22,022 nt of DNA, from positions 1 to 22,022 of the IMG/VR virus record IMGVR_UViG_3300010299_000075, one strand, 5' to 3'. Shown in pieces: positions 4,157 to 22,022 of this stretch. How positions within the stretch are numbered: the first letter of the stretch is position 1; every line of letters starts with the position of its first letter. The notes under the pieces are model-generated. The model made no database searches, had not been told where the DNA came from, and saw nothing but the letters and a program-made list of their open reading frames with translations. The position numbers and the translations under genes are program-made. This DNA is from a virus.

Positions 4157-5461
4157 ATGTATAACGAATTTGATCATAATAAAGGCTTTTCAAAAGGATT
4201 TAAAATACTTCACGAGCAGGATATTGGAAACTGGAGTAATCTTGGTAATCTCGATGATTCTGATTTCTTTGATTTTTTGTTTAGACGTTTTCCATCTACA
4301 TTCACAGAAGTAGAGACTCCAACTCCAGAAGAACCAAATGGATCAACCCTTATATGTGGAAACTCTTATTTTAATAATAACCGTGTCACAAGTATCTATT
4401 ATAATGGTGTAGATCTTTGTGCTACTCCTCCCGAAGATATAGCAGAACCAGAAACACCCGAACCATCAGCAAATATAATTGGTAGATTGTTGTTACAAAT
4501 AGACACTAGAAAGTTTTCAAATATTGGTTCAAATACAGCCATACCATCAAATAAAAATTTTGAGGTTGTTGCTACTGGTAGAAGTGGACTTATCGATATT
4601 AATTGGGGTGATGGGACTTCTGATGCATCTGTTAGAGCAGGGAGAATAAGACACGTATATCAAAACCCAGGAATTTATACAGTAACAATATCAGCAAGGT
4701 CAACTTTTAATCTAAGTTACCCTGATATTGGTGGTTATGGAAATTGTATATTATCAATTGATTATATTGATGATGTATGGCTTGCTACTGTTTCTCCTCT
4801 TGACGTACGTGGGTGTATAAATTTACAATCAATAAACTTTCCATCAAGAGATATATTTAATCGACCTTACGGAAAAGACCAATTTTTAGTTCTCGAAACT
4901 ATTTTTGAGGGATGTGTAAATTTAACATCTGTTGATTTTTTTGACACTTCTAAGGTTTTTGATTGGAGTGCTACTTTTGCTGGATGTTCGTCATTAAGAG
5001 GCATCCCCACTTACGATTATTCTGGAGCTAGTCAATTTACAAGAACTTTTGCAAATTCTGGATTGGTAGTATGGGATTCTACAGCACCTTTTAATAAATC
5101 TTCTGAGTCATTCGTTGAGACCTGGTTTGGTTGCTCAAATCTCAAAGATTTTCCTCCAGGAAAATTTGATAATATATTTCAAAATCTCTCAGATGCAAGC
5201 GCAAGAGCAGGTGCTTTTAGAAATAGACTGACTGGTATATTTGAAGGTTGTGCGTTAACTCCCACATCAATTGAAAATATCTTGGTTTCATTAGCTAATA
5301 CAAAAGTGAGAGACAAAAACAGGACGTTAGTACCACTGACAAATGTTAATGCTGATTTTAATGGTGGAACCAATGCTAAAAAATCAACTTGGACTGCAGC
5401 TGCTAATGATGCATATAATACTCTCTCACTTAGAGGATGGAATATTTCTTTCAATTCTTAA
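4157..5461 (+). CDS. PKD-like plus BspA/DUF285-like repeat protein A, putative adhesin
   Basis: The 434-residue protein has a strong Shine-Dalgarno (AAGGAGA, 4143-4149). Residues 1-62 form an acidic, aromatic N-terminus ending in a Pro/Glu linker. Residues 66-90 (CGNSYFNNNRVTSIYYNGVDLC) are shared with the next gene. Residues ~135-180 look like a PKD or immunoglobulin-like beta domain (INWGDGT ... HVYQNPGIYTVTIS). Residues ~215-370 carry repeats of the form F-x-GC-x-NL/SSL (GCINLQSINFP, FEGCVNLTSVDF, FAGCSSLRGIP, WFGCSNLKDFP), the pattern of DUF285 and BspA-type leucine-rich surface proteins. The C-terminus (AKKSTWTAAANDAYNTLSLRG-W) is a recurring ending of such proteins. BspA-type domains mediate surface adhesion in bacteria; here a tail-tip or fibre role in host recognition is inferred from position next to fibre genes. 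Confidence 0.75.
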   Translation: MYNEFDHNKGFSKGFKILHEQDIGNWSNLGNLDDSDFFDFLFRRFPSTFTEVETPTPEEPNGSTLICGNSYFNNNRVTSIYYNGVDLCATPPEDIAEPETPEPSANIIGRLLLQIDTRKFSNIGSNTAIPSNKNFEVVATGRSGLIDINWGDGTSDASVRAGRIRHVYQNPGIYTVTISARSTFNLSYPDIGGYGNCILSIDYIDDVWLATVSPLDVRGCINLQSINFPSRDIFNRPYGKDQFLVLETIFEGCVNLTSVDFFDTSKVFDWSATFAGCSSLRGIPTYDYSGASQFTRTFANSGLVVWDSTAPFNKSSESFVETWFGCSNLKDFPPGKFDNIFQNLSDASARAGAFRNRLTGIFEGCALTPTSIENILVSLANTKVRDKNRTLVPLTNVNADFNGGTNAKKSTWTAAANDAYNTLSLRGWNISFNS

Positions 5462-5476
5462 TTAATAGGATAAAAT

Positions 5477-6694
5477 ATGTCACCTCTATTTTCTTGCACT
5501 AACGCATATACTAATGGTAGAAAAGTTTCTAAAGCTTATTTTAATGGAACTGATCTATGTCAAGATTCATTTTCGACTCCAGGATTAATACCACCTGGTG
5601 CCGTTGGCACTGCAATCATTGAAATTGATACTCGTTTATATCGCCGCGAGTCAACTTTTGGGACTGGTAGCGTAGATCCAACCAATAAAGAATTTTCAAT
5701 TGCCATACAATCATCTAGCACTCCAGATATTGGTGCTGGAAAACCGGCAATTGTTATTGACTGGGGAGATAATACTGTATTTACAGGTACTAGTCGAGGT
5801 GTTGATACCAGAGGAACTACTATTGGTACATCTAGTGGCAATATCTTTGATCACACATATCCATCACCTGGAGAATATACGGTTACTTTTAGTAATCTTT
5901 CCAAAAATGGATGTAGTTTTTCTTCATCATCTGGAGGAGCATTTGCTTTCCAATCCTTTGCCGCACAATACCAAGAGTGCATTAAAACCGTTAGATTTGA
6001 AAACAATACCTGGCGGTTTAGAATATCAACATCCAATAGATCTTTATTTGGAGACTGCATCAATCTTACGAGTTTTACTGCCCCAACCATAGACCCAATA
6101 GATGGAGGATCTCCCTTTTTAAGGGTTAGTTCTCTTGATGGTGCTTTTACAAATTGCAGTAGTTTGACTAGTTTTCCATCTATTAACACATCTAATATCA
6201 CTCAATATATTGGAACTTGGTCAGGATGCTCATCACTATCAAATTTTCCAAATAATTTAGACTTTACTAATTCAACTGTTCTTAGAGCTACTTTTAAAGG
6301 ACTTCCAATCACTTCTTGGAACTGTAATGGTAGGATAACTGCGTTTGATCTTCGTGGATGTTGGGAAAATTGTACAAATTTGGTTGATTTTCCTGCAAAT
6401 AAATTTGATGGACCACTTAGAACTGTTAGTTCATTTAATTTTCAAACTAGAACTGTTGAAACTCGAACGCAAGAGTACAATACAAATGCTTTTGAACGTA
6501 CCTTTAAGAATTGTGCATTAAGTCCACAATCAATTGAAAATATTTTAACATCTTTAGTTACTGGCGGTGCAACAAATATTACATTATCTCTTGAAGGTGG
6601 TGCAAATGCAGTAGCATCAACCTGGACTGGAAGTGCTATTGCTGCATACAATACTCTTATAAGTAGAGGTTGGACTATTACTAGAAATGCATAA
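5477..6694 (+). CDS. PKD-like plus BspA/DUF285-like repeat protein B, putative adhesin
   Basis: This 405-residue paralogue of the preceding gene lies 15 bp after it. It lacks the ~65-residue N-terminal extension and opens directly with the shared module (SCTNAYTNGRKVSKAYFNGTD). A PKD-like domain follows (VIDWGDNT near 93-100, HTYPSPGEYTVTFS near 126-139), with a longer Ser/Gly-rich insert than in A. Repeats with GDCINLTSF, FTNCSSLTSFP, WSGCSSLSNFP and ENCTNLVDFP run from ~190 to 350. Both proteins share NCALSPQSIENIL-type and STWTGSAIAAYNTLISRGW-type endings. Only a weak Shine-Dalgarno (AGGA) is present, so translation may be coupled to gene A. No signal peptide is seen, consistent with virion assembly rather than secretion. 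Duplication followed by divergence of the exposed repeats suggests selection on receptor binding; this is inference. Confidence 0.75.
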   Translation: MSPLFSCTNAYTNGRKVSKAYFNGTDLCQDSFSTPGLIPPGAVGTAIIEIDTRLYRRESTFGTGSVDPTNKEFSIAIQSSSTPDIGAGKPAIVIDWGDNTVFTGTSRGVDTRGTTIGTSSGNIFDHTYPSPGEYTVTFSNLSKNGCSFSSSSGGAFAFQSFAAQYQECIKTVRFENNTWRFRISTSNRSLFGDCINLTSFTAPTIDPIDGGSPFLRVSSLDGAFTNCSSLTSFPSINTSNITQYIGTWSGCSSLSNFPNNLDFTNSTVLRATFKGLPITSWNCNGRITAFDLRGCWENCTNLVDFPANKFDGPLRTVSSFNFQTRTVETRTQEYNTNAFERTFKNCALSPQSIENILTSLVTGGATNITLSLEGGANAVASTWTGSAIAAYNTLISRGWTITRNA

Positions 6695-6728: not shown

Positions 6729-8363
6729 ATGAAGAAATACTGTCGTCTTTGTAAAAAGAAAGAGTCCAGAGGTCAATGCGGATTCGGTCCCAAGATGTGG
6801 GATAAGTATTCTGTTGATGATGCATCAGATAAAGAAATTGAAAGTGCTGCATCTGACTCTGGAATTACGGAAGTAAATCTTTCTTATTATGCAGAAGAAG
6901 GTCTTCGTGATTGGTTCGGCAAGTCTAAATCAAAAGATGGCAAATCTGGTTGGGTGAATGTAGTCACTGGTGGTACTTGTGCTAGTGATGAACCTGGTGA
7001 AGGGACACCTAAGTGTGTTTCATCTTCTAAACGTGCAAGTATGAGTAAGGCAGAAAGACTTTCTGCTGCTACAAGAAAGAAAAAAGCAGATCCAGGTCAA
7101 CAGCAAAAGTCTGGTGCTGCAAAACCAACATATGTCTCTACTGATCCCAAAAAGAAAATGAAGGAAGAAGTTAACACTTTTAATGAAGCAGATATGAGTG
7201 GTGCTCCTTCAATTAAAGATGCAAAACCAGCAAAGAAAACTAAGGTTAAGTATGATCCTCATATGAAGGTAATGGCACCCCAGATTAAGAAAGAAGAAAT
7301 GGAAGTTACAGAAGCAAAGGATAAACCAGGTAAGAGTAGTGGTAAGAAAGATGCTTGTTACCATAAGGTTAAGTCTCGTTACTCGGTATGGCCTTCTGCA
7401 TATGCATCAGGTGCCCTTGTAAAGTGCCGTAAGAAGGGTGCTGCTAACTGGGGAAACTCTGATAAGAAAGAAGAGTTCCAGGGGTTTACAGATGCACAGA
7501 TTGCTGCACTTGAAGAGATTGGTGCAATCGAGGTAAACGAAGAAGGACAAAAGTGCTGGAAGGGATATGAAAAGAAAGGCACTAAAAAGATGTTTGGTAA
7601 GACTTATAACAATTGTGTCAAGAAAGAAGGATATGCACCTGGTGATGTAGATCAAAAAGTTGGTGCAGTAACATCAATTCCAAAGTCTGATCAAGATGCT
7701 GCTAAAGCAAGATTACTTGCTAAAGCAAAAGCAAAGCGTGAAAAGATGAAGAAAGAAGATGTTGAATTAACAGATGCTTATGGAGATACCTTTGCAGTTG
7801 TAACTGATGTTGTAAAACCAGAACCACTGAAACCTACAACACAAGATTTTCAATGGGAAATGATGGATGATCTAGAAGCAATAACTGAAGCATCTAGACT
7901 TCCAGCAAAGACAGGAAACGTTGTAATGGTAGTTATCAATTGGAGAGGTAGATCTTTCTCAACAAAGATGTTCTTCCCACAAGCATCGATGCCTAAGAGA
8001 AAAGATATTGAAACAGAAATACAAAAACTTTATCCAGATTCTAGAGTTGTATACTTTGCATTATCAAACATTGGTCAAGGTGAACCTTTGATTCAAGTTA
8101 CTACTGAAGATTGGCAAAAAGTAAATAAGAAAGATAAGACTGATGGTATGAGTCCTGATGCAGTAAAGGCATATCGTCGTGAGAATCCTGGTTCAAAACT
8201 AAAGACTGCTGTAACTGGTGATCCTAAACCAGGTAGTAAAGATTCTAAACGTAGAAAGTCTTATTGTTCTAGATCAAAAGGACAACAAGATATGCATAAT
8301 ATTGATTGCTCAAAGACACCAGATAAAGCAATCTGTAAAGCACGTAGACGTTGGAAGTGCTGA
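6729..8363 (+). CDS. Modular Cys/Lys-rich cyanophage protein (DUF6321/DUF5872-like motifs)
   Basis: The 544-residue protein is built of several short modules joined by Lys/Glu-rich linkers. An N-terminal Cys cluster (C5, C8, C17) is followed by residues 60-140 with DWFGKSKSKDGKSGWV, CASDEPGEGTPKCVSS and GAAKPTYVSTDP. Residues ~198-242 contain KKDACYHKVKSRYSVWPSAY and a CRKKGAANWG end. Residues 276-300 read CWKGYEKKGTKKMFGKTYNN followed by CVKKE. A compact domain at ~397-460 resembles the protein encoded next at 8367. The tail ends RRKSYCSRSKG...KARRRWKC. From memory the first, second and last modules match domains of unknown function widespread in cyanomyoviruses. ITE-Ala at 385-388 fits the gp21 protease consensus and would release the last ~157 residues. 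A virion or internal head protein is plausible; the function is unknown. Confidence 0.8.
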   Translation: MKKYCRLCKKKESRGQCGFGPKMWDKYSVDDASDKEIESAASDSGITEVNLSYYAEEGLRDWFGKSKSKDGKSGWVNVVTGGTCASDEPGEGTPKCVSSSKRASMSKAERLSAATRKKKADPGQQQKSGAAKPTYVSTDPKKKMKEEVNTFNEADMSGAPSIKDAKPAKKTKVKYDPHMKVMAPQIKKEEMEVTEAKDKPGKSSGKKDACYHKVKSRYSVWPSAYASGALVKCRKKGAANWGNSDKKEEFQGFTDAQIAALEEIGAIEVNEEGQKCWKGYEKKGTKKMFGKTYNNCVKKEGYAPGDVDQKVGAVTSIPKSDQDAAKARLLAKAKAKREKMKKEDVELTDAYGDTFAVVTDVVKPEPLKPTTQDFQWEMMDDLEAITEASRLPAKTGNVVMVVINWRGRSFSTKMFFPQASMPKRKDIETEIQKLYPDSRVVYFALSNIGQGEPLIQVTTEDWQKVNKKDKTDGMSPDAVKAYRRENPGSKLKTAVTGDPKPGSKDSKRRKSYCSRSKGQQDMHNIDCSKTPDKAICKARRRWKC

Positions 8364-8366
8364 CTT

Positions 8367-8675
8367 ATGAAAACATATAGACAATTTCTTTCAGAAAACA
8401 TCACCATCAATGGTGATTTTAATGGAACACTAACATATGGAGGTGCTCCTGGAAAAGAACAACAGAAAGAGTCATTCTTTGCCGATGTTGTTTGGGAAGG
8501 TAAAATTTATCGTCTTGAAATAGAAGGAAAAATGCTTTCTAAAAATGAATTAGCGGAGCAAATTCAAAGCGAATATCCCGGAGCAATTGTTCATCAAATT
8601 TATCCGGGTGAGGCACCTTCTAAAATTAAAAGTTCAAAAAGATATCAACCAGAAAGATTAACTTGGAGTGACTGA
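8367..8675 (+). CDS. Putative internal head protein with capsid-targeting-like N-terminus
   Basis: The 102-residue protein begins MKTYRQFLSE. The T4 internal proteins IPI and IPIII begin MKTYQEFIAE, a capsid targeting peptide removed by gp21 after the Glu; here LSE at 8-10 fits the (L/I)xE cleavage rule. The mature part would be ~92 residues, containing VVWEGKIYRLEIEGK, a helix NELAEQIQSEYPG and a basic, Pro-containing tail. That domain resembles residues ~397-447 of the preceding protein (VVINWRGRSF ... IETEIQKLYPDS). The gene lies 3 bp after its upstream neighbour and 2 bp before the next gene, so the three are probably co-transcribed and translationally coupled. Packaging into the head and injection with DNA is inferred from the peptide. 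This N-terminal motif is, as I recall, recurrent in marine T4-like phage proteins, so it may have another meaning. Confidence 0.7.
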   Translation: MKTYRQFLSENITINGDFNGTLTYGGAPGKEQQKESFFADVVWEGKIYRLEIEGKMLSKNELAEQIQSEYPGAIVHQIYPGEAPSKIKSSKRYQPERLTWSD

Positions 8676-8677
8676 TT

Positions 8678-10033
8678 ATGGCACAGTGGAATAAAAACGA
8701 ACAAGCATATAGGGCACAAGACACTACAAACTTTGAAGTTTTCATGTGTGCCGATAGATACGGCAACATTGGAGATTGTGGAGTAACTACTGGTACAAGT
8801 GGTGGATCAGTTGATGCTTTTGGAAGATCAAGAACATCAGAACCATTTACACTTGCCGACTATACACACATTTATGGTGAAGAAGTAGAACTTCTTACGA
8901 AAACTGTTGGTGTTGGTGCTACAACCGAAGTAAATCCAAATACAGCATCTATCGCATTAATTGTTGGAACTGGTGCAACAGATCAGGTTATTCACCAATC
9001 CAGAATGTATCACCATTACATGCCTGGTAAGTCTCAATCTATAATGGCTAGTTTTAATTTTCTTGATGTAAGAGAAAATACGACAAAGAAAGTGGGATAT
9101 TATGATGATAGAAATGGTGTATTTGTTCAGCAAGAGGGAGACGGAACTGTTTCTGTTGTAAGAAGATCTTTTAATACTGGAATTGCCAGTGATATAGTCG
9201 TTAATCAGGTTAATTGGAATTTAGATCCTATGGATGGCACTGGTATTACCAGTGTATCTTTAGACTTCACCAAAACACAGTTGTTTGTCTCAGACTTTCA
9301 ATGGTTGGGTGTGGGTAGGATAAGATGTGGATTTGTTCTGGGTGGGAGAACTATATACTTCCATGAATTTAATCATGCTAATGTGGAAGAACATGCATAT
9401 TGGAGTTTACCATCACTTCCAATTAGATGCGAAATTGCCAATACAGGATCTGCTGTTGGTATTACATCAATGGAACAAATCTGCTCCACTGTATTGAGTG
9501 AAGGTGGATATGTTGAAACTGGTGTTGAGTTTGCTGCACATAACGGGCCAATTACCTTATCAAGAAATACACAAAGTACATTTAGACAATGTGTAGGTGC
9601 TATTAGACTATCTAATACATTCAAAGGAATTCCAAATAGAACAACAGTTAGATTGACTGATATTGAAGTATTGAGTGAATCTACAAATGCTAGACTTGAG
9701 ATTTGGAGATTACCAGGCAATAGTAATATTACAGGTGGAACTTGGGTAAGTGTTAATGATGATTCTGCAGTTGAATATAATGTTACGGCAGGGACTAATT
9801 TTACAACAACTGGTGGTGACTTGAAAAATTCAACATTACTTGCTGCAAATAATCCATCAGGAAAGCAAGCATCATCTATGGTTGCATTTAATCCAACTAC
9901 TGCAAGAAGATCTTATATTGCACAAAACATTGATGCTAATGATAGTAATATTTTTGCTATTATTGTAGAAAATTTATCTGATACTAGTGAAACAGATATT
10001 TACAATGCATTTCAGTGGAGAGAAACTAGGTAA
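8678..10033 (+). CDS. Putative virion structural protein
   Basis: The 451-residue protein begins MAQWNKNEQAYRAQDTTNFE and carries a segment SVDAFGRSRTSEPFTLADY (residues ~44-62) that I recognise as typical of a cyanophage and marine phage protein family annotated only as structural or hypothetical. The rest is predicted largely beta: repeated Gly/Thr-rich strands, with conserved-looking HQSRMYHHYMPGKSQ, KVGYYDDRNGVFVQ and MDGTGITSVSLDFTKTQ. There is no signal peptide or transmembrane segment. It is the last gene before the gp17 remnant, in the place where T4 has gp13-gp16; none of those is recognisable here, and no small terminase is seen in the window. Assembly in the tail or head surface is inferred from family and context. 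Confidence 0.7.
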   Translation: MAQWNKNEQAYRAQDTTNFEVFMCADRYGNIGDCGVTTGTSGGSVDAFGRSRTSEPFTLADYTHIYGEEVELLTKTVGVGATTEVNPNTASIALIVGTGATDQVIHQSRMYHHYMPGKSQSIMASFNFLDVRENTTKKVGYYDDRNGVFVQQEGDGTVSVVRRSFNTGIASDIVVNQVNWNLDPMDGTGITSVSLDFTKTQLFVSDFQWLGVGRIRCGFVLGGRTIYFHEFNHANVEEHAYWSLPSLPIRCEIANTGSAVGITSMEQICSTVLSEGGYVETGVEFAAHNGPITLSRNTQSTFRQCVGAIRLSNTFKGIPNRTTVRLTDIEVLSESTNARLEIWRLPGNSNITGGTWVSVNDDSAVEYNVTAGTNFTTTGGDLKNSTLLAANNPSGKQASSMVAFNPTTARRSYIAQNIDANDSNIFAIIVENLSDTSETDIYNAFQWRETR

Positions 10034-10038
10034 TTTTT

Positions 10039-10233
10039 ATGAGTGATAATGTATATCTTGGCAATCCGAATCTAAAAAAAGCAAATACTGCTATTGAGTT
10101 TACTCAAGAAGAGATTGCTGAGTTTATTAAGTGTAAGCAAGATCCCGTATATTTTGCAAAGAAATATATAAAAATTGTTTCTGTTGATGAGGGACTTGTA
10201 CCTTTTAATATGTACGGTTTCATCAATGTTTGA
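10039..10233 (+). pseudogene. Truncated 5' copy of terminase large subunit gene (gp17)
   Basis: A 64-codon frame beginning MSDNVYLGNPNLKKANTAIE aligns with the first 58 residues of the complete gp17 at 12291; I count 43 identities in 58 positions with one gap. After FNMY the similarity ends in GFINV and a stop. The fragment lacks everything from the Walker A motif (residue 78 of gp17) onward, so it cannot be an ATPase or nuclease. Its DEGLVPFNMY segment looks closer to the form I recall from other cyanophage gp17 proteins than the window's own full copy (DEGLTQFTPY). It is probably the relic of a resident gp17 displaced by an incoming cassette-plus-gp17 segment. A small expressed regulatory peptide cannot be excluded, because the frame is intact with its own ATG. 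Confidence 0.8.
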
Positions 10234-12290: not shown

Positions 12291-13934
12291 ATGTCTGATG
12301 TATATCTTGGTAATCCCAATCTGAAGAAGGCAAATACGCCGATTGAATTCAGTTCTAGTAATATTGAAGAATTTATTAGTTGTAAGGATGACCCTGTTTA
12401 TTTTGCAAAGAACTACGTAAAGATTGTTTCTCTTGATGAAGGACTAACTCAATTTACTCCATATATCTTTCAAGAGAAACTTATTAAAAATTTCCATCAC
12501 AACAGATTTAATATCTGTAAGATGCCTCGTCAGACTGGTAAGTCTACCACTGTGGTCTCTTATCTTTTACACTATGCAATCTTTAATGATAGTGTTAATA
12601 TTGGTATTCTTGCAAACAAGGCATCAACTGCAAGAGAACTTTTAGCAAGACTTGCAACTGCATATGAGAACTTGCCCAAATGGATGCAACAGGGTATTCT
12701 TGTATGGAACAAAGGTAATATAGAATTAGAAAATGGATCAAAGATACTGGCTGCTTCTACGTCTGCAAGTGCTGTCCGAGGCATGTCGTTTAACATTCTC
12801 TTCCTCGACGAATTTGCGTTCGTTCCAAACCATGTTGCAGATGCCTTCTTTGCCTCTGTTTATCCTACTATTACTTCTGGTAAATCAACGAAGGTAATTA
12901 TTGTTTCAACGCCTCATGGCATGAACCACTTCTATAGAATGTGGCATGATGCGGAGAAGAATGCAAATGAATATATTCCAACTGATGTTCACTGGACTGA
13001 AGTTCCTGGAAGAGATAGTGAATGGAAAAGACAGACGATTGCTAACACGTCAGAACAGCAATTTAAAGTTGAGTTTGAATGTGAGTTCTTAGGATCTGTT
13101 GATACTCTGATTGCTCCGAGTAAATTAAGGACCTTAGTTTATGATGCACCAAAAACTAAGAGTGCTGGATTGGATGTTTATACTGATCCAATTAGAAATC
13201 ATGATTATATTGTAACGGTTGACGTTGCGAGAGGAGTTGGTAATGATTACTCTGCTTTTGTCGTTACAGACATTACTACCTTTCCTCATAGAGTTGTTGC
13301 GAAGTATAGAAATAATGAAATAAAACCAATGATGTTCCCCAATATAATTTGGGAAGTTGCAAAGAGTTATAATAGTGCTTACATCTTATGTGAAGTTAAT
13401 GATGTTGGAGATCAGGTTGCTGCAATTCTTCAATATGATTTGGAGTATCAGAATCTTTTAATGTGCTCAATGAGAGGTAGAGCAGGTCAAATTGTCGGTC
13501 AAGGATTTTCTGGAAAGAAAACACAACTTGGTCTTAAAATGTCCAAGACGGTCAAGAAGGTTGGTTCTCTTAACCTCAAGACTATGATTGAGGAAGATAA
13601 ACTCCTTATCAACGATTATGAAATTATCTCTGAACTTACAACCTTTATTCAAAAGAATAATTCATTTGAGGCAGAGGATGGTTGTAACGATGACCTTGCG
13701 ATGTGTCTTGTGATTTATGCGTGGTTAGTTGCTCAGGATTACTTTAAAGAACTAACTGACCAGGATGTAAGAAAAAGAATATATGAAGAACAAAAGAATC
13801 AGATCGAACAAGATATGTCTCCCTTTGGATTTATCTCTGATGGTCTTGATGAGGATAGTTTTGTAGACAATAATGGTGACCGTTGGTATGTTGATGAATA
13901 TGGTGATAGATCTTATATGTGGGACTATATGTAA
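12291..13934 (+). CDS. 17: Terminase large subunit gp17 (packaging ATPase/nuclease)
   Basis: The 547-residue protein is the motor that translocates and cuts concatemeric DNA at the portal. Motifs: Walker A PRQTGKST (79-86), Walker B ILFLDEFA (169-176, D173/E174), a coupling STPHG motif (206-210), and an RNase H-like nuclease domain with VDVARG (D311), CEVNDVGD (367-374) and CNDDLAM (465-471). Length is somewhat below T4 gp17 (610). The acidic, aromatic C-terminus (DNNGDRWYVDEYGDRSYMWD) may bind the portal. No late promoter box or Shine-Dalgarno precedes it; expression probably depends on the cassette upstream. Its N-terminal ~58 codons are duplicated in diverged form at 10039. The stop overlaps the next start (TAATG). 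Confidence 0.97.
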   Translation: MSDVYLGNPNLKKANTPIEFSSSNIEEFISCKDDPVYFAKNYVKIVSLDEGLTQFTPYIFQEKLIKNFHHNRFNICKMPRQTGKSTTVVSYLLHYAIFNDSVNIGILANKASTARELLARLATAYENLPKWMQQGILVWNKGNIELENGSKILAASTSASAVRGMSFNILFLDEFAFVPNHVADAFFASVYPTITSGKSTKVIIVSTPHGMNHFYRMWHDAEKNANEYIPTDVHWTEVPGRDSEWKRQTIANTSEQQFKVEFECEFLGSVDTLIAPSKLRTLVYDAPKTKSAGLDVYTDPIRNHDYIVTVDVARGVGNDYSAFVVTDITTFPHRVVAKYRNNEIKPMMFPNIIWEVAKSYNSAYILCEVNDVGDQVAAILQYDLEYQNLLMCSMRGRAGQIVGQGFSGKKTQLGLKMSKTVKKVGSLNLKTMIEEDKLLINDYEIISELTTFIQKNNSFEAEDGCNDDLAMCLVIYAWLVAQDYFKELTDQDVRKRIYEEQKNQIEQDMSPFGFISDGLDEDSFVDNNGDRWYVDEYGDRSYMWDYM

Positions 13935-19404: not shown

Positions 19405-20058
19405 ATGAAACTAATCCGAGAAGAGATCGAAGACGTAAAAGTGTTTATTACCGAAGGTAAAAACGGCAAGAAGTCACTTTACATTGAAGGTGTATTCCTT
19501 CAGGGAAACATCAAGAACCGCAATGGTCGGATGTATCCTATGGAGACTCTTCGTCGAGAGGTGGGAAGATATAATGAAAGTTATGTTAATTCAGGAAGAG
19601 CACTTGGAGAACTTGGACACCCAGATGGTCCAACGGTAAATCTAGACAGAGTTTCACATAAAATTGTTTCTTTGAGAGAAAGCGGTTCAAACTATATTGG
19701 AAAAGCAAAGATTCTTTCTACTCCAATGGGTAAGATCGCAGAATCACTTTTATCTGAAGGTGTAAAGCTTGGTGTTTCTTCTAGGGGCATCGGTTCACTT
19801 ACACAAAATAGAGAAGGTGTAAATATTGTTTCTGATGACTTTATGTTAGCAACTGCTGCTGACATTGTTGCTGACCCATCTGCTCCTGATGCTTTCGTTG
19901 AAGGTATCATGGAAGGAAAAGAGTGGGTTTGGGAAGGAGGAATCCTTCGCGAAAAACATCTTTCATATATGAAAAAGCAAATTGATACATTAGTAAACCA
20001 AAAAATGCTGGAAGAGAAGAAGATTCAACTATTCAATGACTTTTTAGCAAATCTTTAA
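19405..20058 (+). CDS. 21: Prohead core protein and maturation protease gp21
   Basis: The 217-residue serine protease cleaves gp22, gp67, gp23 and internal proteins after the glutamate of (L/I)xE sites once the prohead is complete. It shows the family pattern: NRNGRMYPMETL (38-49), GELGHPDGPTVNLDRVSH (68-85) with catalytic His72, KLGVSSRGIGSL (121-132) with the catalytic serine at 125 or 126, and AADIVADPSAPDAFVEGIME (151-170) holding likely acidic partners. Length is equal to T4 gp21 (212). The C-terminal helix (KKQIDTLVNQKMLEEKKIQL) is probably the part that docks in the core. No recognisable defect. Confidence 0.96.
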   Translation: MKLIREEIEDVKVFITEGKNGKKSLYIEGVFLQGNIKNRNGRMYPMETLRREVGRYNESYVNSGRALGELGHPDGPTVNLDRVSHKIVSLRESGSNYIGKAKILSTPMGKIAESLLSEGVKLGVSSRGIGSLTQNREGVNIVSDDFMLATAADIVADPSAPDAFVEGIMEGKEWVWEGGILREKHLSYMKKQIDTLVNQKMLEEKKIQLFNDFLANL

Positions 20059-20103: not shown

Positions 20104-21228
20104 ATGTCTGGTGACAACTTACAAGAAATGGAGACGGCAAGGGGAGTCCAGTCAAAGACCGCAGTTAATGCTGGTGCAAAGTCTGGTGATCCAATGCCAA
20201 AATTGCAAAACGATGGTTCTCAACTAGCATCTGTTGAAGATCTCGGAGGTCCTACCCCTGAGAACTATAAGTCTGACGATGATTCCGCTAAGTTGAAAGA
20301 ACCAGGCGGCAGCCTTAAGCAAGTTAAGGATGTTGTAAACAAGGGAGCAAGATCTGCTGACCCAATGCCAGCAACTAAGAAAGAAGAAGTTGAGGCAGAT
20401 GAAGAGGAAGTTATCGAAGAGTCTCCTGAAATTACTGATGAAGTAGTCGAAGAAGAAACTGTCGAGGAAGTACTCGAAGTCAGCGACGAAGTTGACGTTG
20501 AAGAAGACGTTAATGCTCTTCTTGGTGGTGAAGAACTCTCCGAGGAATTCAAAGAGAAAGCAAAGACAATCTTTGAAGCTGCTCTGAAGACAAAAGTAGT
20601 TGAAATCAGAGAAGCACTCGAAGCACAATATGCTCAGAAACTTCAAGAAGAAGTTGAAGCAGCAAAAGCAGAACTCACTGAAAGAGTTGATTCCTATCTG
20701 GAATACGTCTCAGAAGAGTGGGTTTCTGAAAACCAACTTGCCATTGAAAATGGCATTAAAACTGAGATGACTGAATCATTCCTTTCAGGAATGAAGGGTC
20801 TTTTTGAAGAACATTATGTAACAATCCCTGAAGAGAAATATGATGTACTCCACAGTATGGTAGAAAAACTTGATGAAATGGAGACAAAACTCAACGAGCA
20901 AATCCATAAGAATATCTCCCTCAACAAGCGCCTCGCAGAGTCGGTTGCTGATAGCATCTTAGATCAGATTTCTGAAGGTCTCGCAGAGACGCAGAAAGAA
21001 AAGCTCGCTTCACTTGCAGAAAGTGTTGAGTTTGAAAGTGAAACTGCATATCGTGAAAAACTGAAGACGCTTAAGGAGTCATACTTCACATCTAGAACAG
21101 CGACTTCAACTTTAGCAAAGACTGAAACACTGTCCGAAGGTGTTGAGTCCGTACCACAAGAACAAACATATTCTTCTGATATGGCGTCATATCTGAAAGC
21201 ACTTTCATCTGTTGCTAAAAACAACTGA
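20104..21228 (+). CDS. 22: Prohead scaffold (core) protein gp22
   Basis: The 374-residue protein is longer than T4 gp22 (269) and fits the scaffold pattern. A disordered N-terminus contains a duplicated motif, NAGAKSGDPMP (22-32) and NKGARSADPMP (79-89). It is followed by a strongly acidic tract (~93-146; e.g. EEVIEESPEITDEVVEEETV) and long charged helices (~145-330) likely to form coiled coils. Several LxE or IxE triplets could serve gp21, which destroys the scaffold in maturation to free space for DNA. The C-terminus (SDMASYLKALSSVAKNN) is conserved-looking and could contact gp23. The gene lies between protease and capsid genes, as in T4. It has its own late promoter. Confidence 0.95.
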   Translation: MSGDNLQEMETARGVQSKTAVNAGAKSGDPMPKLQNDGSQLASVEDLGGPTPENYKSDDDSAKLKEPGGSLKQVKDVVNKGARSADPMPATKKEEVEADEEEVIEESPEITDEVVEEETVEEVLEVSDEVDVEEDVNALLGGEELSEEFKEKAKTIFEAALKTKVVEIREALEAQYAQKLQEEVEAAKAELTERVDSYLEYVSEEWVSENQLAIENGIKTEMTESFLSGMKGLFEEHYVTIPEEKYDVLHSMVEKLDEMETKLNEQIHKNISLNKRLAESVADSILDQISEGLAETQKEKLASLAESVEFESETAYREKLKTLKESYFTSRTATSTLAKTETLSEGVESVPQEQTYSSDMASYLKALSSVAKNN

Positions 21229-21267: not shown

Positions 21268-22022
21268 ATGTTCCATTCCGAACATCTGCAGGAGAAGTGG
21301 GCACCTCTTCTGGACTATCAGGGTCTTGATAAAATCAAAGATTCACACAGAAGATCAGTAACCGCTGTCCTGCTCGAAAACCAAGAAAGATTCCTCAAAG
21401 AGCAAGCTGCCTTTGATAGTGGTTCCATGGGCAACCTCATGGAAGCAACCCCAACCAACGCCGCAAACGCTGCTGGTGCATCCGGTGGTTTTGGTGGTGC
21501 TGATGCACAAAACAATGGTCCTACCGCTGGTTTCGACCCCGTTCTGATCTCCCTGATCAGACGTTCAATGCCTAACCTGATGGCATATGATCTGGCAGGA
21601 GTTCAACCAATGAACGGTCCTACCGGACTCATCTTCGCAATGCGTTCCCGCTACAGCGCACAAGACGGCACCGAAGCATTCTTCAACGAAGCAGATACCG
21701 CATTCTCCGGTCAGGACGCAGGTCTTGATGAGACTGCAGGTTTCACTGGTGCTTCCGTAGGTATGGGTACTACCTCACAGTCAGGTAGCAATCCTTCCCT
21801 CCTCAACCCAACCGCAACTGCTGACGAAACAGCATATAACGTTGGTCAGGGTATGGTTACTGGCGATGCTGAGAACCTCGGCGGAACTGGTAGCGATGCA
21901 TTCAACGAGATGGCATTCTCGATCGAGAAAGTCACCGTTACTGCAAAGTCAAGAGCACTCAAGGCTGAGTACTCCTTGGAACTGGCACAAGACCTGAAGG
22001 CAATTCACGGTCTGAATGCTGA
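21268..22022 (+). CDS. 23: Major capsid protein gp23, 3' end outside the window
   Basis: The first 251 codons are present. The protein begins MFHSEHLQEKWAPLLDYQGL with DKIKDSHRRSVTAVLLENQE after it. GSMGNLMEATPTNAA contains LME-Ala at 57-60, a fit to the gp21 rule that removes residues 1-59, as T4 gp23 loses 65. The HK97-type capsid domain then starts: FDPVLISLIRRSMPNLMAYD, GVQPMNGPTGLIFAMRSRY, and KVTVTAKSRALKAEYSLELA before the break. The Shine-Dalgarno is strong (TAAGGAG, 21254-21260). No exact late box precedes it; only CTAAACA at 21245 comes close, so read-through from gp22 is likely. Codon use is sharply biased to TTC, AAC and ACC, unlike the AT-rich fibre genes, as expected for the most abundant protein. 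Confidence 0.97.
   Translation, partial: MFHSEHLQEKWAPLLDYQGLDKIKDSHRRSVTAVLLENQERFLKEQAAFDSGSMGNLMEATPTNAANAAGASGGFGGADAQNNGPTAGFDPVLISLIRRSMPNLMAYDLAGVQPMNGPTGLIFAMRSRYSAQDGTEAFFNEADTAFSGQDAGLDETAGFTGASVGMGTTSQSGSNPSLLNPTATADETAYNVGQGMVTGDAENLGGTGSDAFNEMAFSIEKVTVTAKSRALKAEYSLELAQDLKAIHGLNA

Follow-up and report, generated by a model that had tools for sequence, protein, structure and literature searches.

The locus and its neighbours

The window, by which we mean the whole 22,022-nucleotide stretch of IMG/VR virus record IMGVR_UViG_3300010299_000075 analysed here, carries a short gene within a structural operon, between gp16- and gp17-type genes (Table 1). Its product begins MKTYRQFLSENITINGDF in translation and is a full-length member of phrog_1742 (E 1e-34), a family annotated as of unknown function; a Pfam search with the body of the protein returned no match. 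The upstream multidomain protein is a homologue of S-SCSM1 gp29, which contains a domain shared with the cargo and is a virion protein by mass spectrometry (MS), and both flanking genes have MS-detected virion counterparts in S-SCSM1. Related loci usually run from a DUF6321-type gene through the cargo gene to a MAQWNK-type virion structural gene, with gaps of a few bases, and the downstream type of neighbour is present in most homologous loci. A gp21-type protease and a gp22-type scaffold are encoded in the same window, followed by the start of gp23, whose candidate propeptide site, NLME then A, aligns with FLTE then A of T4.

Two further features of the window may be recorded. A 64-residue open reading frame at 10039-10233 is closely similar to the N-terminal 60 residues of the gp17 terminase, whose start is at 12291, and looks like a truncated duplicate, and two adjacent proteins of about 400 aa at 4157-6694 look related, the first having a weak PKD-domain match.

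Table 1 Features of the window that bear on the tagged gene
Feature	Position	Strand	Basis
Upstream multidomain protein ending in DUF6321	6729..8363	+	Pfam; homologue with shared domain
Domain paralogous to the cargo core	7887..8096	+	Profile-profile E 1.7e-10; structure model
phrog_1742 cargo protein, 102 aa	8367..8675	+	ORF call, ATG start; phrog_1742 profile
Capsid-targeting-like decapeptide MKTYRQFLSE	8367..8396	+	Y4, F7 = targeting positions; L8, E10 = processing positions
Predicted gp21 scissile bond E10/N11 (L-S-E then N)	8394..8399	+	Inferred from gp21 motif L/I-x-E (PMC9026906)
Predicted folded cargo core, beta-beta-alpha-beta, residues 36-82	8472..8612	+	AlphaFold2
Downstream virion structural protein, phrog_1645 (head and packaging)	8678..10033	+	phrog profile
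gp21-type prohead protease (Peptidase_S77)	19405..20058	+	PF03420 E 3.9e-34
gp22-type scaffold, eight [LI]xE[AGSN] candidate gp21 sites	20104..21228	+	PF25623 E 2.4e-82
gp23 major capsid protein, start only	21268..22022	+	Translation

The N-terminal decapeptide and its conservation

The first ten residues of the product closely resemble MKTYQEFIAE, the start of both IPII and IPIII of T4. Six of the ten positions are identical (M1, K2, T3, Y4, F7 and E10), and position 8 is a conservative change, with Leu here and Ile in T4. Mutagenesis in T4 has shown that targeting by this capsid-targeting sequence (CTS) depends on its residues 4 and 7, and processing on residues 8 and 10, and gp21 cleavage falls after L/I-x-E (PMC9026906); the window protein has Tyr4 and Phe7 near its N terminus and L8-S9-E10 as a cleavage motif. 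A first-pass annotation of this DNA had given seven matching positions, a count corrected here to six. It was right about the open reading frame (plus strand, ATG, 102 aa), about the common start of the T4 internal proteins (which applies to IPII and IPIII), about a shared Glu10, the residue needed in T4 for cleavage, and about the presence of gp21, which the Peptidase_S77 match locates. Its view that the cargo is unlike the T4 internal proteins agrees with the missing Pfam match and with tblastn matches only in cyanophage records.

Those matches comprise full-length homologues in 135 cyanophage records, and the alignment begins at residue 1 in all 60 homologues among the matches listed. Two IMG/VR scans gave 160 homologous loci, which together with the window protein represent 121 distinct proteins; the second scan was queried with body peptides only and was therefore not selected on the N terminus. 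The pattern MK.[FY]..F[LIM].E is kept in 121/121 of these proteins: K2, F7 and E10 are the same in all, position 4 admits only Phe or Tyr and position 8 only Leu, Ile or Met, while positions 3, 5, 6 and 9 vary. The positions held constant in phrog_1742 homologues are those required in T4.

AlphaFold2 models the cargo body as short, mostly one 45-residue domain that follows a disordered linker on its N-terminal side, and confidence is low outside residues 36-82. In the upstream protein a candidate gp21 site, ITE then A, lies ahead of the paralogous domain. A virion protein of S-SCSM1 with 517 aa, the same size as gp29, also matches the cargo model. A PDB sequence search of the cargo gave only replication protein A, at chance level (E 0.12).

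Distribution of the tag

A DNA pattern for MK.[FY]..F[LIMV].E, with F, L, I, M and V allowed at position 8, was scanned in 12 phage genomes and gave 18 matches, and its reversal gave none. The 2,728 gene-like ORFs of these genomes contain the motif 16 times at the N terminus and six times internally; the internal rate predicts 0.023 N-terminal occurrences, so that the observed 16 amount to an enrichment of about 700-fold. T4 served as the positive control, in which the pattern recovers IPII, IPIII and gp61.1. The last of these (54 aa, hypothetical; NC_000866 18966-19130, minus strand) begins MKTFKEFIKE, a CTS-like tag, and directly adjoins 61.2 (adfA, DarT inhibitor), around which a possible anti-toxin-antitoxin island has been described (PMC9391042); gp61.1 may be an unrecognised internal protein.

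Almost all tagged phages encode a gp21 protease. A Peptidase_S77 gene is present in 10/10 T4-like genomes examined and was not found in S-CBWM1 or S-TIM5. S-CBWM1 has no strict motif, though NMNAT-like and kinase proteins have been found in its virions; S-TIM5, in which no gp21-type protease was detected, has one motif match.

In IMG/VR, the pattern MK[TS][FY]..F...EA occurs at no fewer than 80 loci, and 85/85 of the matches among those listed keep a frame open for at least 63 codons up to a stop, or until the contig ends. With near-copies removed, the 68 tagged proteins among the matches listed share only M1, K2, F7, E10 and A11, and the search pattern itself partly dictates E10 and A11. Pfam assigns these cargoes to cytidylyltransferase-like proteins (13), DUF6267 (5), AAA/Zeta-toxin-like proteins (3), DUF5661 (2), DPBB (2), DUF6321, DUF5824 and GNAT; most of the 68 have no Pfam match, and PADLOC gave two weak matches among them.

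Several tagged loci deserve separate mention. Small DUF6321 or DUF6321-like proteins are themselves tagged in L092 (22628-23125, S-SZBM1_192), L424 (S-CREM1 gp179), L253 and L283, whereas the DUF6321 of the window is the end of the untagged upstream protein. Short tagged proteins in L232, L246 and L255 have a Cys-rich segment resembling the start of the untagged S-SCSM1 virion protein gp29. The tagged cytidylyltransferase of S-SKS1 (L100; 72006-73234, minus strand) is split over two frames, reflecting a frameshift either in the phage or in the record. Four adjacent genes of S-CRM01 (99847-103973, minus strand; L135 704-3973) all have tag-like starts and form a cargo cluster of a cytidylyltransferase, proteins of 169 aa and 78 aa and an 821-aa kinase-like protein. 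Tagged proteins at L257 1211-1858 and L233 3736-4149 resemble ADP-ribosyltransferase domains by eye, which Pfam does not confirm; if true, this would parallel T4 Alt.

Tagged proteins in published virion proteomes

S-SCSM1 has two strict matches, gp30, which is the phrog_1742 homologue, and the NMNAT gp91; gp91 was detected in the virion proteome (PMC9602691) and gp30 was not reported there. The strict matches of S-CREM2 are a SAM hydrolase (Pfam S-adenosylmethionine lyase), the APH-like kinase gp14 and the cytidylyltransferase gp154, and the virion proteome of this phage contains all three (PMC10665884 Table 3). A slightly relaxed motif also fits gp13 (MKDLHSFLTE) and gp136 (MQTFSMFFSE), two further virion proteins of S-CREM2 without annotated function, so that 5/5 annotated proteins with the relaxed motif (SAM lyase, gp13, gp14, gp136 and gp154) are in the virion (Fisher p 6e-4, the motif having been relaxed after the data were seen). 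An S-CREM2 protein annotated as Cas9 contains LRFASFMAE then A at residues 17-25.

The S-SZBM1 cytidylyltransferase S-SZBM1_140 carries MRFRQFIIE then A and is present in the virion proteome, in which 30 proteins were found and the phrog_1742 homologue S-SZBM1_191 was not reported (PMC9146016). In S-SM1 the one strict match is a cytidylyltransferase (MKKFSAFLNE), whose gene cluster was detected in virions, and the S-PM2 cytidylyltransferase was not detected in S-PM2 virions (PMC3037559). No strict motif occurs in S-PM2, whose cytidylyltransferase is untagged at the annotated start; this fits the failure to detect it, although that proteome is older and was less complete. The S-CREM1 paper names one putative non-structural virion protein, gp157 (1403 aa, annotated as a lipoprotein lipase), which we used as a blind check. 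It is not among the strict-motif matches, and since it adjoins baseplate genes and may be structural, it is neutral for our reading of the tag.

Enrichment of the motif among virion proteins is not significant in S-SCSM1 alone or S-SZBM1 alone; the pooled p of 3e-4 is only indicative, given the small numbers and the relaxed motif. The clipped and uncut forms would be distinguished by their peptides: AAESGASVQAK against EAAESGASVQAK (after trypsin at K9) for the S-SCSM1 NMNAT, and SVNISGDFNGNLYINSAEQQQVDEK against SFLSESVNISGDFNGNLYINSAEQQQVDEK for S-SZBM1_191.

The first-pass annotation had called for such a scan of cyanophage proteomes, expecting the decapeptide to serve as a sequence handle, and had taken a motif mostly on non-virion enzymes as the result that would speak against it. 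One pattern retrieves dozens of unrelated cargoes, several unrelated tagged proteins are virion-associated (in S-SCSM1, S-CREM2, S-SZBM1 and S-SM1), and the tagged enzymes are those found in virions. Its capsid-targeting reading is accordingly strongly supported for the cyanophage system; for the cargo itself, homologues of which are unreported in S-SCSM1 and S-SZBM1 virions, packaging is still a prediction, as are clipping after residue 10, injection and an action on host defence or metabolism.

Discussion

We consider the window protein to be, with a probability of roughly 0.8, cargo that cyanophages load by a capsid-targeting system of the T4 type. As a general cyanophage system this reading is well supported, because the positions required in T4 are conserved, the motif is N-terminal, it co-occurs with gp21 and unrelated tagged proteins are found in virions. 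For the product of 8367-8675 itself we infer packaging, cleavage, injection and host action. What speaks most against packaging of the phrog_1742 protein is that two proteome lists do not include the family. The S-SCSM1 miss says little, because clipped gp30 gives only two tryptic peptides of 7-25 residues; S-SZBM1_191 would give six, though only 30 proteins were found in that study. The slightly acidic mature protein and the motif match in S-TIM5 also weigh against our reading.

We propose the following mechanism. The decapeptide would dock the new protein on the gp22-type prohead core via Tyr4 and Phe7, after which the shell would close round it. Cleavage by gp21 after Glu10 would then leave a mature protein of 92 residues inside the head alongside the DNA, and this protein would probably be ejected from there into the host. 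The same tag would also load unrelated proteins, including cytidylyltransferase/NMNAT, SAM lyase and protein-kinase-like proteins.

It is possible, though we regard it as the less likely course, that the packaged protein serves the core or morphogenesis of the head and is not an injected effector. The tag would then bring it to the scaffold, where it would aid head assembly and either stay or be lost on maturation. Its place in a structural operon, beside a domain-sharing multidomain protein found in S-SCSM1 virions, is consistent with such a role, as is the effect of T4 IPIII on head assembly (PMC9026906), and occurrence in 135 cyanophage records suggests a constitutive part more than an arms-race gene. 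Against this, the body is little more than a single small domain on a disordered linker, and phrog_1742 has no known morphogenetic role.

An injected binder of host RNA polymerase resembling T7 Gp2, which would be a functional counterpart of T4 Alt, seems improbable. The suggestion comes from the model of the fold: the top Foldseek matches in the PDB are the T7 Gp2-RNA polymerase complex (4lk0; E 0.027, 27% identity over 51 columns) and the RNA-polymerase-binding YkzG, and the cargo model overlays the Gp2 fold with a VIA Z of 4.9 (rmsd 2.1 over 49/51 residues). However, other small folds tie, a Z below 5 does not separate one small beta-beta-alpha-beta domain from another, and similarly shaped ribosomal proteins match equally well and outrank Gp2 for the paralogous domain. 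Homology to T7 Gp2 was also tested with sequence profiles and was not supported (E 0.53 and 0.38, the former from hhalign to T7 Gp2 as a single-sequence comparison). Arg56 and Arg58 of Gp2, which we take to be contact residues, fall by eye at Gln77 and Tyr79 of the cargo. That the N terminus is an ordinary amphipathic start, CTS-like by chance or family descent and without targeting, would accord with a family unreported in virions but is very unlikely for a motif that opens dozens of unrelated proteins, is so strongly confined to N termini and tags virion proteins.

Returning to capsid targeting, the wider implication is that one N-terminal tag probably loads a large and mostly undescribed set of proteins into heads for delivery to the host, a repertoire that could be read from sequence, in marine cyanobacterial T4-like phages and in other T4-like phages in IMG/VR contigs. 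The set would include NMNAT-like proteins, SAM lyase, kinases, GNAT, Zeta-toxin-like ATPases, DUF6267, DUF6321 and the phrog_1742 domain. Several papers have reported NMNAT, SAM hydrolase/lyase and kinases in cyanophage particles and left open whether these are cargo or contaminants; a shared tag, cut site and protease would explain their entry into the particle and argue for real cargo. The tag of the phrog_1742 family is newly pointed out here. In the open-access literature that we searched, CTS and cyanophages are mentioned together only in a T4 review, so the link has apparently not been made there, and the searched text of the papers on the virion NMNAT or cytidylyltransferase of S-SCSM1, S-CREM2 and S-SZBM1 does not note the tag. 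Cyanophages of the T4 type are among the most abundant viruses of the ocean, and the motif provides a search pattern for proteins that accompany their DNA and would be delivered before any viral gene is expressed. T4 proteins delivered by the CTS route block restriction enzymes, and the new set is therefore a good place to search for counter-defence and early take-over functions.

Comparison with known systems

The likeness to T7 Gp2 lies in a predicted beta-beta-alpha-beta arrangement and a similar size; Gp2 differs in having no capsid-targeting tag, and sequence profiles do not support the relation. With the T4 internal proteins IPI, IPII and IPIII the window protein shares the N-terminal decapeptide with K2, an aromatic residue at position 4, F7, L/I8 and E10, a genome that also encodes a gp21-type protease and a gp22-type scaffold, and the form of a short protein with an unrelated body. 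Unlike theirs, the cargo body is not homologous as far as tested, and the gene lies in the gp16-gp17 interval among structural genes, packaging, cleavage and injection being predicted from sequence. The T4 internal proteins are basic, whereas the mature phrog_1742 protein is slightly acidic (11 K/R against 13 D/E after residue 10, counted from the translation). The virion cytidylyltransferase/NMNAT (T4-GC190; S-SCSM1 gp91, S-CREM2 gp154 and S-SZBM1_140) differs in being an enzyme of about 290-420 residues that is MS-detected in virions, and shares with the window protein the same tag, the same phage group and the same protease.
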